The notes under the pieces were generated by a model. It was not told the DNA's origin, made no database searches, and saw nothing but the letters and a program-made list of their open reading frames with translations. Shown here piece by piece: positions 11,080-14,670 of a stretch of 59,673 nucleotides of DNA. The position numbers were made by a program, and so were the translations under genes. The stretch's first letter is position 1. The number at the start of each line of letters is the position of its first letter. Source of the DNA: Ignavibacteria bacterium (GTDB lineage Bacteria > Bacteroidota > Ignavibacteria > Palsa-1295). The stretch covers positions 1 through 59,673 of the forward strand of contig JABDDM010000007.1 in the NCBI GenBank assembly GCA_013287605.1, given 5' to 3'.

Positions 11080-11087
11080 GGTGTGTG
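11080..11087. repeat. Target-site duplication, left copy
   Basis: GGTGTGTG immediately outside the left inverted repeat. An identical copy lies immediately outside the right inverted repeat at 14226-14233. Eight base pairs is the duplication length known for IS1595-family elements. Confidence 0.9.
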
Positions 11088-11113
11088 GGCACTTATGAAC
11101 AAGGCTCAGCAAA
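11088..11113 (+). repeat. Left terminal inverted repeat
   Basis: 26 bp, starting GGCACTTATGAAC and ending AGGCTCAGCAAA, matching the right end in inverted orientation at 25 of 26 positions. The mismatch is A (left) versus T (right) at the fourteenth base. Similarity continues loosely for a few bases inward (TGTG). Confidence 0.93.
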
Positions 11114-11126
11114 TGTGGACTGCTAC

Positions 11127-11582
11127 TCAGACGGAATACCCCCTCTTCTCAATATCCTGAATAAGCCTCTCTTTGGAAAATACTGGCAATCTAAACCCTT
11201 TTGTAACTGTATCGGATTGCCGAAGGAGCATAGCTTTTGACGTTAAGTCCAGAGCAACTTGAACGGCCTCCGCTATTTGTGAGATCGGAGGCTTCGAAAC
11301 ATAGATATCGATTCCTGTGAATGCCTTGTAAGTCGCACGTGAAGACGCGGCTTCTTCCTCGAGTGAAAATTCGGCATCAGTAATGATATGGGAAAACTCC
11401 TTATCCGGTGAATCTACGTACATCGTAACCGCGATCCTTATACTGAGTTTAGAAAAGTCAGGCTCAAGGTGGTAAGAGTAGCTATACCTAAAAGCCGTTG
11501 CTTGTGGGTTGAATGGGCCCAACGGTTCATCATAGTCATAATGCGATATGCGGAAATTTGGAGCGCCAAAAATGAAGTTCAT
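11127..11582 (-). CDS. SecB-like protein (possible antitoxin-chaperone), transposon passenger
   Basis: A 151-residue soluble protein without signal peptide. The middle has alternating strands (RYSYSYHLEPDFSKLSIRIA, then TDAEFSLEEEA). The C-terminal part PPISQIAEAVQVALDLTSKA followed by RLPVFSKERL resembles the last helix and the LPxxF/LPPI segment of SecB-type chaperones. Its start overlaps the stop of the upstream XRE gene by ATGA, so the two are translationally coupled. In toxin-antitoxin-chaperone systems a SecB-like protein stabilises an HTH antitoxin; that role is inferred here because no toxin gene is recognisable. Similarity to SecB is by eye and should be treated as tentative. Confidence 0.55.
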   Translation of the reverse strand: MNFIFGAPNFRISHYDYDEPLGPFNPQATAFRYSYSYHLEPDFSKLSIRIAVTMYVDSPDKEFSHIITDAEFSLEEEAASSRATYKAFTGIDIYVSKPPISQIAEAVQVALDLTSKAMLLRQSDTVTKGFRLPVFSKERLIQDIEKRGYSV

Positions 11583-11881
11583 TCCGGTTTGGTGGTTCCA
11601 ATTAATTCTCCTGAAACCTCTCCCGTGAAACCAGCAGGGATGAGCTTGGATGGGATTTCGATCAATGGGTATCCCAACGCCAATTCGATCTTACAAATTG
11701 TCTGGAGAGTCAGGTTGGCTTCCCCCTGTAAGACACGGTTAAGGTAGGAAAGCTTTATATCCGACATTTTTGAGAATTGAGTCTGATTCATCCCCTTCAT
11801 AGCCATAGCTTCCCCAAGACGCTTCGCTATCGCCTTTCGGTATGCTTTAAGCTTGCTATTGAGGGCTGTTTCCTTTGCCAT
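11579..11881 (-). CDS. XRE/Cro-type HTH regulator, transposon passenger
   Basis: A 100-residue DNA-binding protein. The HTH occupies about residues 18-70: RLGEAMAMKGMNQTQFSKMSDI then YLNRVLQGEANLTLQTICKIELALG, with the NQTQFSK helix-2 and SYLNRVLQG recognition-helix pattern. The tail after residue 75 (IPSKLIPAGFTGEVSGEL) is flexible and could be the chaperone-addiction or protein-contact segment seen in TAC antitoxins. The gene leads a two-gene unit with the SecB-like ORF (4-bp overlap). It is divergent from the transposase across a region rich in palindromes, which are likely operators. Phage-repressor-like or antitoxin function are both possible. Confidence 0.85.
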   Translation of the reverse strand: MAKETALNSKLKAYRKAIAKRLGEAMAMKGMNQTQFSKMSDIKLSYLNRVLQGEANLTLQTICKIELALGYPLIEIPSKLIPAGFTGEVSGELIGTTKPE

Positions 11882-11922
11882 TTATGCCGAATCCTTTCTC
11901 AAAAATATACGTTTGGTAAAAA

Positions 11923-11997
11923 TGGTGGAGTGGACGGGAGTCTGACCCGTTTTCCGTGGATGCTAAGCCCGCTTGCGATAACGACCGCCCCCACCCC
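11923..11997 (-). tRNA. Degenerate tRNA-like sequence (TAG anticodon by position), transposon-borne
   Basis: On the minus strand 75 nt fold as a cloverleaf. A 7-bp acceptor stem pairs GGGGTGG with CCACTCC (one G:U), the D-stem has four pairs, the anticodon stem five positions with one mismatch, and the T-stem is a perfect 5-bp ACGGG/CCCGT. An encoded ACCA end follows. The 7-nt anticodon loop CTTAGCA would give TAG. The T-loop is TCAGACT rather than TTCRANY, the D-loop lacks GG, and position 37 is C. It is therefore a pseudo-tRNA or a tRNA mimic rather than a standard tRNA. Five T follow the CCA end on the same strand. It sits 42 bp upstream of the XRE gene. Confidence 0.4.
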
Positions 11998-12012
11998 ACT
12001 TTTTCTACCAGT

Positions 12013-12040
12013 AGCCACCTTCGGGTGGCTTTCTGTTTTC
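12013..12040 (+). terminator. Terminator-like hairpin
   Basis: AGCCACC (12013-12019) pairs perfectly with GGTGGCT (12024-12030) around a stable TTCG loop, followed by TTCTGTTTTC. It faces the plus strand although no plus-strand gene precedes it inside the transposon. It may insulate the transposase from outside transcription, a common feature of insertion sequences. Confidence 0.7.
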
Positions 12041-12097
12041 TTGAAACAAAGCCTCAAATTTCTCGTTCCCCAATTCGTGAAGATTTATTAGGCGTAC

Positions 12098-12113
12098 TTC
12101 ACTAATTAGTGAA
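12098..12113. promoter_or_regulatory. Perfect 16-bp palindrome, likely operator
   Basis: TTCACTAATTAGTGAA is a perfect inverted repeat between the divergent XRE and transposase genes. Its half-site CACTAA/TTAGTG recurs as a second inverted pair at 12141-12157. Repeated dyads in this position fit operators for the XRE regulator, for example to hold down transposase transcription. Confidence 0.55.
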
Positions 12114-12130
12114 ACCATACTCTTGCTTTC

Positions 12131-12171
12131 TTCGTATTTATTAGTGTAAGGCACTAACGACAAAGTACGAA
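12131..12171 (+). promoter_or_regulatory. Nested inverted repeats covering the transposase ribosome-binding region
   Basis: TTAGTG (12141-12146) pairs with CACTAA (12152-12157), and an outer pair TTCGTA (12131-12136)/TACGAA (12166-12171) ends one base before the transposase ATG at 12173. In RNA the outer pair would bury the weak ribosome-binding region, limiting translation. In DNA the inner dyad repeats the half-site of the palindrome at 12098. Confidence 0.5.
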
Positions 12172-12172
12172 G

Positions 12173-13099
12173 ATGGCTACACTAACTTTCCCAAAGACAT
12201 TGCTTGAAGCGGTGACGTACTTCTCGGATAATACCCGTTGCGTTGAGTACCTGACAAAGACTTTTTGGCCAAATGGGGTAATTTGCAAGTGCGGTTCACA
12301 GCGCGTTACCTTGCTCAAGACCCGCCAACTTTGGCAGTGCAAGGATTGCAGGAAGCAGTTCAGCATTAAGGTTAATACAGTGTTCGAAAACTCGGCTCTC
12401 CCACTGACCAAATGGCTTCCGGCGGTTTGGCTTTTGACAAATGCAAAAAACGGTATCAGCTCATGCGAATTGTCTCGGTCACTCGGTATATCCCAACACT
12501 CGACTTGGTTCATGCTCCACAGGATTCGTGAGGCATTGCGTAACGGTTCGTTAGCGAAGCTTTCCGGCACCGTAGAGAGCGACGAAAGCTGGGTAGGTGG
12601 TAAAGAGGCGAACCGCCACATCTCGCAACGTGGTGGTAAGCGTCAGGGCCGCAAAGATGACAAGACACTTGTACATGGATTGTTAGAGCGTGGCGGTGAG
12701 GTTCGTGCTCAGGTTGTCGAAAATCAGAAAATGCGAACGCTCATTCCGATTATCCATGCGAACGTTGAGGCAGGTGCAACGCTCTACACCGACGCTCTCC
12801 AGTCATACAAGAATCTTCGCACGATGTACTCACACGATTTCGTAGATCATGGTTTTGAATATGTCCGTGGTGACGTGCATACCAATACGATTGAGAACTA
12901 CTGGTCACTCGTTAAGAGAATGCTGAAAGGCACCTACATTCATACCGAGCCGTTCCATCTTGACCGTTACTTAGACGAACAGGGATTCCGCTACAACACG
13001 CGCAAAGGCAACGATCAGAGCCGTTTCGAATTGGCTATCTCTCAAGTTGTCGGAAAGCGTTTGACCTACAAAGAATTGACCGGAGCCAGCGCCGAATGA
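12173..13099 (+). CDS. IS1595-type (ISXO2-like) DDE transposase
   Basis: 308 residues. The N-terminal zinc ribbon has CKCGSQ and CKDC cysteine pairs (about residues 37-64), typical of IS1595 transposases. The DDE core contains VESDESWVGG (first acid), LYTDALQSY (second acid) and HTNTIENYWSLVKR with the conserved Asn-Glu, ending in a C-terminal helix. Length matches the family. It moves the element bounded by the 11088-11113/14200-14225 repeats. The start at 12173 lies under a hairpin, and the stop overlaps the next ORF by ATGA. No frameshift or truncation is seen, so it is probably active. Confidence 0.95.
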   Translation: MATLTFPKTLLEAVTYFSDNTRCVEYLTKTFWPNGVICKCGSQRVTLLKTRQLWQCKDCRKQFSIKVNTVFENSALPLTKWLPAVWLLTNAKNGISSCELSRSLGISQHSTWFMLHRIREALRNGSLAKLSGTVESDESWVGGKEANRHISQRGGKRQGRKDDKTLVHGLLERGGEVRAQVVENQKMRTLIPIIHANVEAGATLYTDALQSYKNLRTMYSHDFVDHGFEYVRGDVHTNTIENYWSLVKRMLKGTYIHTEPFHLDRYLDEQGFRYNTRKGNDQSRFELAISQVVGKRLTYKELTGASAE

Positions 13100-13284
13100 T
13101 TGCAAAACCGAAAGGAGCAAACGAGGACTCGAACTCCGAAGAAGAAAAGAGCGAAGAGTTTTTGAACTTCGAAAGAGGAATGAAAGCAATCCTTTCCCTT
13201 ACTCCCGAAGAGGCCTTGAAGGTAAGAGAAAAGGTGCCAGAGCCCAAATCCAAGAAGCGAAAACGAAAACCACGAACCAACTGA
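13096..13284 (+). CDS. Small highly charged protein coupled to the transposase, 62 aa
   Basis: This starts in the ATGA overlap with the transposase stop, so translation is coupled. It is acidic and Ser/Glu-rich in the first half (SNSEEEKSEEF), then has LSLTPEEALKVREKV, then a strongly basic tail (KSKKRKRKPRTN). The tail suggests nucleic-acid contact. A terminator follows 13 bp after the stop, making tnp plus this ORF one transcript. Function unknown; an accessory role in transposition is a guess from the coupling. Confidence 0.7.
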   Translation: MIAKPKGANEDSNSEEEKSEEFLNFERGMKAILSLTPEEALKVREKVPEPKSKKRKRKPRTN

Positions 13285-13296
13285 GTCTATTCCAAG

Positions 13297-13320
13297 AAGC
13301 CCCGCACTAGAGGGGCTTTC
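13297..13320 (+). terminator. Terminator after transposase unit
   Basis: AAGCCCC (13297-13303) and GGGGCTT (13312-13318) form a 7-bp stem around an 8-nt loop; the tail TTC is short. It separates the transposase unit from the membrane-protein passenger that starts 14 bp later. Confidence 0.65.
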
Positions 13321-13333
13321 CGTATATTGCGGA

Positions 13334-14137
13334 ATGGACTCGCAACAAAACCTCTCCTATATATACAGTCTCGTTGTTTGGGCTGTATCCAGCATCGTTA
13401 TAGCGTTATCGCGCCTCTCCGTCTCACCACCACACTCTGAATTCACTGCAACAAATCTAATTCAAGTAGTGAGTGCCGCAGTTGTAGCATGGGCAACAGT
13501 TTCCATTATGCTGAGCACAAAGAAGAACTCCCAAACCTCTTCTCAGATTCACGAGCTGTCAGCGAGAATCTACGACCTGACGTACCGCCCCTATCTTAAG
13601 ACCGAAATTTCGAAACCCTATCTTGTAGGTGAACAGCAACCTTATATCACGGATGTTATTTTTAGAAACAATGGTCAAGTACCGATAGAAATAAGAAAGA
13701 TCGAGTACGAGGCTAGTCAAGACGGTCTGGAACTCACGGGCCAAAAGGATGCGGAATTCATGCTGATCCAGCATGAGCGCAATACGATGCCCGTTGCCCT
13801 ACCATTCGTCAATTTTGGTGGGACGGTTGCCCTGCTTACCGTAAAAGTAGTGATAATGTATAAGGGAGTAGCAGAGAAGTACCACGTCCGCCACACTTGG
13901 TATGAGTACAACGCTGATACCAAGGAGTTTAATAAAACGAGAGAATGGGAACCCATAGAGGATACAGCCACAGATGAAAAAGAACATGGTCGAAAGAACA
14001 AGATCCGACGCATAAACCCCGTCGTTTCGCGTTTTCTTCGAAGAAAGGCTAAGCTCCCAGATAAAGTCCCAAAGGATGAAAGCGCCGAAATACCAACAGC
14101 CCAAAAGACTGAGCGTCAAGAGCAGCCAAAGGAATAG
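13334..14137 (+). CDS. Membrane-anchored passenger protein of unknown function
   Basis: 267 residues. Two N-terminal hydrophobic segments (about residues 10-26 and 40-58) are followed by a mostly beta soluble domain (about 85-215; ITDVIFRNNGQVPIEIRKIEY resembles an immunoglobulin-like or CARDB-like strand pair). A very basic then acidic tail closes the protein (RRINPVVSRFLRRKAK ... ERQEQPKE). No catalytic motif and no family is recognised. It lies inside the transposon, downstream of the transposase terminator, so it probably has its own promoter. Small membrane proteins with such layout occur in defence islands and mobile elements, but nothing here proves a defence role. Confidence 0.75.
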   Translation: MDSQQNLSYIYSLVVWAVSSIVIALSRLSVSPPHSEFTATNLIQVVSAAVVAWATVSIMLSTKKNSQTSSQIHELSARIYDLTYRPYLKTEISKPYLVGEQQPYITDVIFRNNGQVPIEIRKIEYEASQDGLELTGQKDAEFMLIQHERNTMPVALPFVNFGGTVALLTVKVVIMYKGVAEKYHVRHTWYEYNADTKEFNKTREWEPIEDTATDEKEHGRKNKIRRINPVVSRFLRRKAKLPDKVPKDESAEIPTAQKTERQEQPKE

Positions 14138-14199
14138 ATCAGTCATTTACCCTCCTCATTCCTAAAACCGTCGAAATTAGCTTGTTTTCGGTCACACAT

Positions 14200-14225
14200 T
14201 TTGCTGAGCCTAGTTCATAAGTGCC
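14200..14225 (-). repeat. Right terminal inverted repeat
   Basis: Read on the minus strand from 14225 it starts GGCACTTATGAAC and matches the left end at 25 of 26 positions. It is followed outside by GGTGTGTG. Confidence 0.93.
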
Positions 14226-14233
14226 GGTGTGTG
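14226..14233. repeat. Target-site duplication, right copy
   Basis: GGTGTGTG, identical to 11080-11087. Confidence 0.9.
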
Positions 14234-14249: not shown

Positions 14250-14479
14250 AATTCTCCTTCTTACAGAAAACTATGACTCAGGCTTGAGGACTGGATATGT
14301 GCAAACTCTATTCCCAATTTATTGCTGTAAGAAAGAGATTATAAGGAATCGGGAAGACAATGGACGTGCAACATAAGAAACATATAATAACTGCACTACG
14401 GTTCCCCATAAAGGCCGAGTTAACGCTTGGGTGGATTTCTTCTCGCTTGAGATCGCACACGGTAAAGGCGTTCGGTGAA

Positions 14480-14670
14480 GCCTGCTTCCTTCGGCGATGT
14501 TTTGCACGCCGCTGCGTGCCGCTTGCACCATTTGGTCGACCGTACGACTGCGCTTCTCAACATATCGCTCGCAAAAACGGGCTGTGATATCGTAGCAAAG
14601 CTGCGCAACCTGGAAGCCCTTCAGCCCCCGGTAAACCACCATGTTTTGGTATCAGGATTTCGTCGTTCAC
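14480..14670 (-). pseudogene. Decayed four-helix-bundle (S23/IVS-type) protein gene
   Basis: The minus strand shows the family signature in two frames. First NDEILIPKHGG (14667-14635); then, after a one-base shift in the ggtttacc stretch near 14631-14640, YRGLKGFQVAQLCYDITARF and QMVQAARSGVQNIAEGSR down to about 14480. The rest of the usual ~110-120 residues (the SSKTEL... third and fourth helices) is missing in every frame. This family, named for 23S rRNA intervening sequences, is common as stand-alone genes in Bacteroidota. Here it is truncated and frameshifted, just downstream of tRNA-Glu on the same strand. A start at GTG 14670 would fit the family. Confidence 0.75.

Follow-up and report, generated by a model that had tools for sequence, protein, structure and literature searches.

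An IS1595 unit transposon of an Ignavibacteria bacterium with a probable XRE repressor of its own and putatively exchangeable cargo

The IS1595 family is usually described with one transposase gene, and its members are usually listed as simple insertion sequences. ISfinder distinguishes the groups ISPna2, ISH4, IS1016, IS1595, ISSod11, ISNwi1 and ISNha5, of which all except IS1016 have the N-terminal zinc ribbon, and the family members with passenger genes are the closest known relatives of the transposon described here. The family is characterized by a transposase with a zinc ribbon and a DDE_Tnp_IS1595 domain, an 8-bp target duplication and short ends beginning with GG (PMC8101967). Genes beyond transposition are well documented in other transposons, i.e., Tn7-like transposons carry defence cargo (PMC8649781), while Tn3-family transposons carry toxin-antitoxin pairs near the transposition genes, with a proposed role in their control (PMC7157771). 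In the toxin-antitoxin-chaperone (TAC) modules, the chaperone-addiction tail lies at the C-terminus of the antitoxin (PMC5105189), and SecB genes that adjoin antitoxin genes alone have also been described (PMC4257090).

The window, i.e., the whole stretch of 59,673 nucleotides analysed here, belongs to a 2.2-Mb draft genome (68% complete) of an uncultured Ignavibacteria-type bacterium, and it contains a complete IS1595 element with 3138 bp between the 8-bp duplications (Table 1). The preliminary description of this DNA had proposed an IS1595 element with passenger genes, 26-bp inverted ends with one mismatch and borders exact to the base, and all of this is borne out by the ends, which start with GG (GGCACTTAT) and are complementary at 25 of 26 positions, by the identical duplication on both sides and by the intact transposase ORF. 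In a scan of all loci, the element scored 8/8 for the duplication and 23/24 for the ends, while chance pairs mostly reached 7/8 and 15-18/24. The transposase matched the DDE_Tnp_IS1595 domain (PF12762, 4.9e-41), the N-terminal zinc ribbon (PF12760, 8e-11) and the NCBIfam IS1595 model (NF033547, 2.4e-54). The element is a genuine IS1595 unit transposon, sharing with the family its transposase architecture, the 8-bp duplication and the short GG-starting ends, but unlike the usual IS1595 it has additional fixed genes, XRE and a small ORF, together with unrelated cargo. By analogy with the family, the transposase would recognise the 26-bp ends, cut the target with a stagger of 8 bp and move all the DNA that the ends enclose, and actual transposition of this element is predicted from the same family features.

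Table 1. Features of the IS1595 element and its borders in the window
Feature	Positions	Strand	Basis
Left 8-bp target duplication, GGTGTGTG	11080..11087	.	sequence
Left terminal inverted repeat, GGCACTTATGAACAAGGCTCAGCAAA	11088..11113	+	end alignment
151-aa orphan gene, putative cargo, overlaps XRE stop by 4 bases	11127..11582	-	ORF, homology searches
XRE (HTH_3) regulator, 100 aa, core gene of the transposase group	11579..11881	-	Pfam, comparison
tRNA-like cloverleaf, anticodon UAG, abnormal D/T loops	11923..11997	-	cloverleaf fit
Terminator-like hairpin between element end and transposase	12013..12030	+	hairpin scan; site number not above chance
Perfect 16-bp palindrome TTCACTAATTAGTGAA, candidate XRE operator	12098..12113	.	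repeat search
Second inverted repeat with the same half-site, TTAGTG-N5-CACTAA	12141..12157	.	repeat search
IS1595 transposase, 308 aa, zinc ribbon and DDE domain	12173..13099	+	Pfam, NCBIfam
62-aa ORF, basic C-terminus, overlaps transposase stop	13096..13284	+	comparison, 11 elements
267-aa protein, putative cargo, two N-terminal hydrophobic segments then soluble domain	13334..14137	+	ORF, profile searches
Right terminal inverted repeat	14200..14225	-	end alignment
Right 8-bp target duplication, GGTGTGTG	14226..14233	.	sequence

The element is present in one copy in the host genome, and the proposed search for the 3138-bp unit elsewhere returned the window copy alone from the host genome and the sampled genomes, plasmids and viral contigs. 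Another contig of the host carries a second, different IS1595 element with a transposase identity of 54%. No empty site was found via the flanking reductase gene, whose homologues are just 40-46% identical, the nearest relatives being too distant and the locus not kept. The ORF adjoining the right end (14322-14642, minus strand) gave a sub-threshold match to the 23S rRNA intervening-sequence protein.

Homologous transposases were searched in relatives, in the class and in the phylum, and their surroundings were cut out and scanned for ends and duplications. This yielded 42 elements, including that of the window, in which the ends match and the 8-bp duplication is exact; they measure 1235 to 8259 bp (139 kb in total), and three of them are identical cargo-free 1235-bp copies in one genome. 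IS1595 elements with similar ends and a duplication were also found on a Roseomonas (alphaproteobacterial) plasmid (L144, 6942-9545), with a hypothetical protein and a PIN-domain protein as cargo, and on a gut contig labelled 'Bacteriophage sp.' in GenBank (L146, 1555-4495), the latter complete and with an exact duplication. The cargo layout of the plasmid element resembles that of L062.

Comparison of these elements separates a fixed core, which consists of the transposase, the coupled small ORF and, in one subgroup, a divergent XRE gene. The small ORF had been described as a coupled, basic passenger; its presence and overlap stand, while its passenger status does not, since a family of this ORF occupies the same position, overlapping the transposase stop, in 11 elements, and by this comparison it is part of the element core and not cargo. 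The XRE regulator fared similarly: its presence and its coupling to the 151-aa gene hold, and its description as a passenger falls because XRE is shared by six elements, that of the window included, whose transposases group together. Significant similarity to the window XRE was detected in the XREs of just five other elements, all divergent from the transposase, and the six transposases accompanied by these mutually similar XREs form one group in the maximum-likelihood tree (support 86/65, 84% of bootstraps, 0 of 500 label shuffles), a support that we regard as moderate. Moreover, 7 of the best nine XRE matches in 16 genomes adjoin an IS1595 transposase. Because of the single tree group and these neighbourhoods, XRE is regarded as a core gene that was probably gained once and is inherited with the transposase.

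The XRE is probably the element's own repressor. Most likely, it would bind the TTAGTG/CACTAA repeats in the gap that separates its gene from the transposase gene, and would repress its own operon together with the transposase. The CACTAA half-site occurs five times within 140 bp of the gap between XRE and transposase, a number equalled in 35 of 5000 null sequences, and similar gapped repeats are visible by eye in L026 and L032. In the paired-repeat shuffle test, with elements tested singly, p was about 0.05-0.09 in three and three sisters had none, and on account of this borderline or negative outcome we infer rather than claim XRE repression. The hairpin between the element end and the transposase could stop read-through, and a sigma-70 promoter scan gave chance level only.

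The partner of XRE had been labelled 'SecB-like', which did not survive the searches. The 151-aa protein has no Pfam or PDB match and no significant homologue in about 640 sampled genomes or in the plasmids and viral contigs. Even with an E cut-off of 1, nothing in the host genome matched the SecB family PF02556, a SecB HMM built from the same class gave E 0.15 and hhalign a probability of 0.1%, and the P-Y-x-R motif common to those same-class SecB proteins is missing; with Pfam, custom HMM and profile comparison all without a match, SecB membership was rejected at the sequence level. A single-sequence AlphaFold model has a SecB-compatible order of four strands followed by two helices at a pLDDT of just 43, and Foldseek with this model found no match below E 0.3. 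These results bear on the idea of a TAC-like arrangement, in which XRE would be the antitoxin and the 151-aa gene would encode a SecB-type chaperone dedicated to it, so that transposase repression would hinge on chaperone supply. As in HigBA-SecB (PMC5105189, PMC4257090), a second small gene overlaps XRE, here by 4 bases, and XRE has a C-terminal tail; this tail of 23 aa, absent or short in the five sister XREs, sits like chaperone-addiction tails (PMC5105189), which alone is weak evidence. The strand and helix order of the model and the recorded SecB genes beside antitoxin genes alone (PMC4257090) would also fit. However, unlike TAC modules, the pair has no toxin, none having been found beside the window XRE with Pfam, NCBIfam or defence profiles, and the partner is not recognisable as SecB; besides, other sister XREs couple to unlike genes, namely a HEPN-like ORF and a methyltransferase. 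We thus consider the TAC interpretation improbable. A likely true TAC module was noticed in a same-class genome, where a HigB-like toxin, an XRE antitoxin and a SecB gene stand in a row (L108, 748-1979) and no IS1595 element was noticed around them.

None of the sister elements has the 151-aa gene, the membrane-type protein of 267 aa or the tRNA-like relic, and these three would therefore be exchangeable cargo. The membrane protein announced inside the element corresponds to the 267-aa ORF with its two N-terminal hydrophobic segments, and its only homologue, a weak one with 30% identity, comes from a genome of the same family. Neither it nor the 151-aa protein has a homologue in the viral contigs and plasmids, and neither matched a defence family at a convincing level or past any cut-off. 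In the elements, cargo ORFs were called by length alone; among the 87 of at least 120 aa, only four cross-element pairs were similar at 1e-6, and most match no family. The recognisable ones of the sister elements, among the matches listed, are mostly of restriction-modification, abortive-infection and toxin-antitoxin types and include N6_N4_Mtase and SocA_Panacea (at least three each), RloB, AAA_21, GmrSD_N, HEPN_AbiV, ResIII, IrrE-type M78, PIN and HSDR_N_2. One element (L028, 7029-10721) holds a complete AbiL pair, AbiLi and AbiLii, between its ends and has an exact 8-bp duplication. An equal number of flanking ORFs matched mainly housekeeping Pfam families among the matches listed, and a few defence genes, i.e., pAgo, AbiEi and NucC; since some flanking ORFs are defence genes, the cargo pattern could partly reflect insertion into defence islands. 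In PADLOC, overlapping methyltransferase models inflate the family counts, and no ratio of cargo to flanks was taken from these counts. Judged from these sequences, the true cargo is variable and its recognisable part mostly of defence or toxin-antitoxin type.

Since genes for restriction, abortive infection and toxin-antitoxin pairs abound in the sister cargo, the window cargo would most likely serve as a small module of the defence or addiction type that XRE controls, which is a guess by association. The same bias makes it conceivable, at less than even odds, that the cargo works by itself against phages or as a toxin-antitoxin module and that the transposon is kept for the protection it gives the host. 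The window XRE resembles the regulator of the defence candidate PDC-M64C (1.1e-12), but the likeness is limited to the common helix-turn-helix; the 267-aa protein has very weak SLATT-type matches (E 0.03-0.08), but no cargo protein of the element passes any cut-off. At the other extreme, orphan genes, a degenerate tRNA and elements that almost never have cargo in common might mean accidentally trapped host DNA, drifting without a selected function. This seems rather unlikely to us, as every ORF has stayed open, the overlaps resemble those of coding genes and the recognisable sister cargo families are functionally biased.

The tRNA-like sequence is a 75-nt cloverleaf of 7+5+4+3 pairs with a 7-bp acceptor, a 5-bp T stem and a CCA end, and fits this good occur twice per 4 Mb of random sequence. 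Its acceptor is tRNA-Ala-like (G3-U70, A73, CCA), G3-U70 and A73 being alanine determinants, and its 3' half resembles the tRNA-Ala of a relative. The tRNA-like sequence reported earlier is thus present, but it does not score as a functional tRNA: it lies below the default thresholds of all the tRNA detectors, ARAGORN finds it at a relaxed setting only, and even at E 10 it is missing from the Rfam matches. RNA folding of this strand prefers another fold, with a stability no greater than that of shuffles. It is probably a relic, because both loops lack the conserved bases (TTC in the T loop, which reads TCAGACT, and GG in the D loop, which reads GTCGTTAT) and because Rfam does not report it. 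Use of the CUA codon in the window genes is low, so a role in serving these genes was rejected. Three sister IS1595 elements carry tRNA genes above the Rfam cut-off with odd anticodons, namely UUA in L030 (10799-10883, plus strand; long variable arm, serine-type acceptor) and L032 (7070-7141, minus strand) and ACU in L058 (9600-9673, minus strand; no long arm). The anticodon UUA would read UAA stops; suppression of cargo stops was rejected, as the cargo ORFs of the UUA-carrying elements have no credible in-frame TAA extension. The tRNA density in the elements, three to four per 139 kb, is not clearly above that of the genome, and we therefore claim no enrichment. That the odd tRNAs (UAG in the window, UUA twice and ACU in the sisters) are working cargo of this IS1595 lineage is very doubtful; if they were, and were charged, they would misread codons or stops and be a translational switch or a defence weapon on a transposon.

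Taken together, we favour, with a probability of about 0.75, an IS1595 unit transposon with a fixed core, an XRE repressor and exchangeable cargo for which a defence or addiction module is the best guess. The lineage, in which an XRE gene is resident and the exchangeable cargo is rich in defence genes, is a variant within the known class of IS1595 elements with passenger genes. Like Tn7-like transposons (PMC8649781), these elements combine a core with exchangeable cargo in which defence and toxin-antitoxin genes are enriched, but they are unrelated, far smaller, and have one transposase and no target-site selector. With the Tn3 family (PMC7157771), the window element has in common regulator-type genes beside the transposition genes that are proposed to help control them, while its transposase is of another family and no recognisable toxin adjoins XRE. 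Publications linking IS1595 to such defence or abortive-infection cargo were not found in a literature that came mainly from open journals and was mostly represented by titles and abstracts, and priority is not claimed.

Our results suggest that a small family with one transposase ferries defence and addiction modules between bacteria in the manner of Tn7-like and Tn3 elements, and that one IS1595 branch acquired its own repressor gene. As the ends are exact, the cargo is easily delimited, and these elements could therefore be mined for unknown defence genes.
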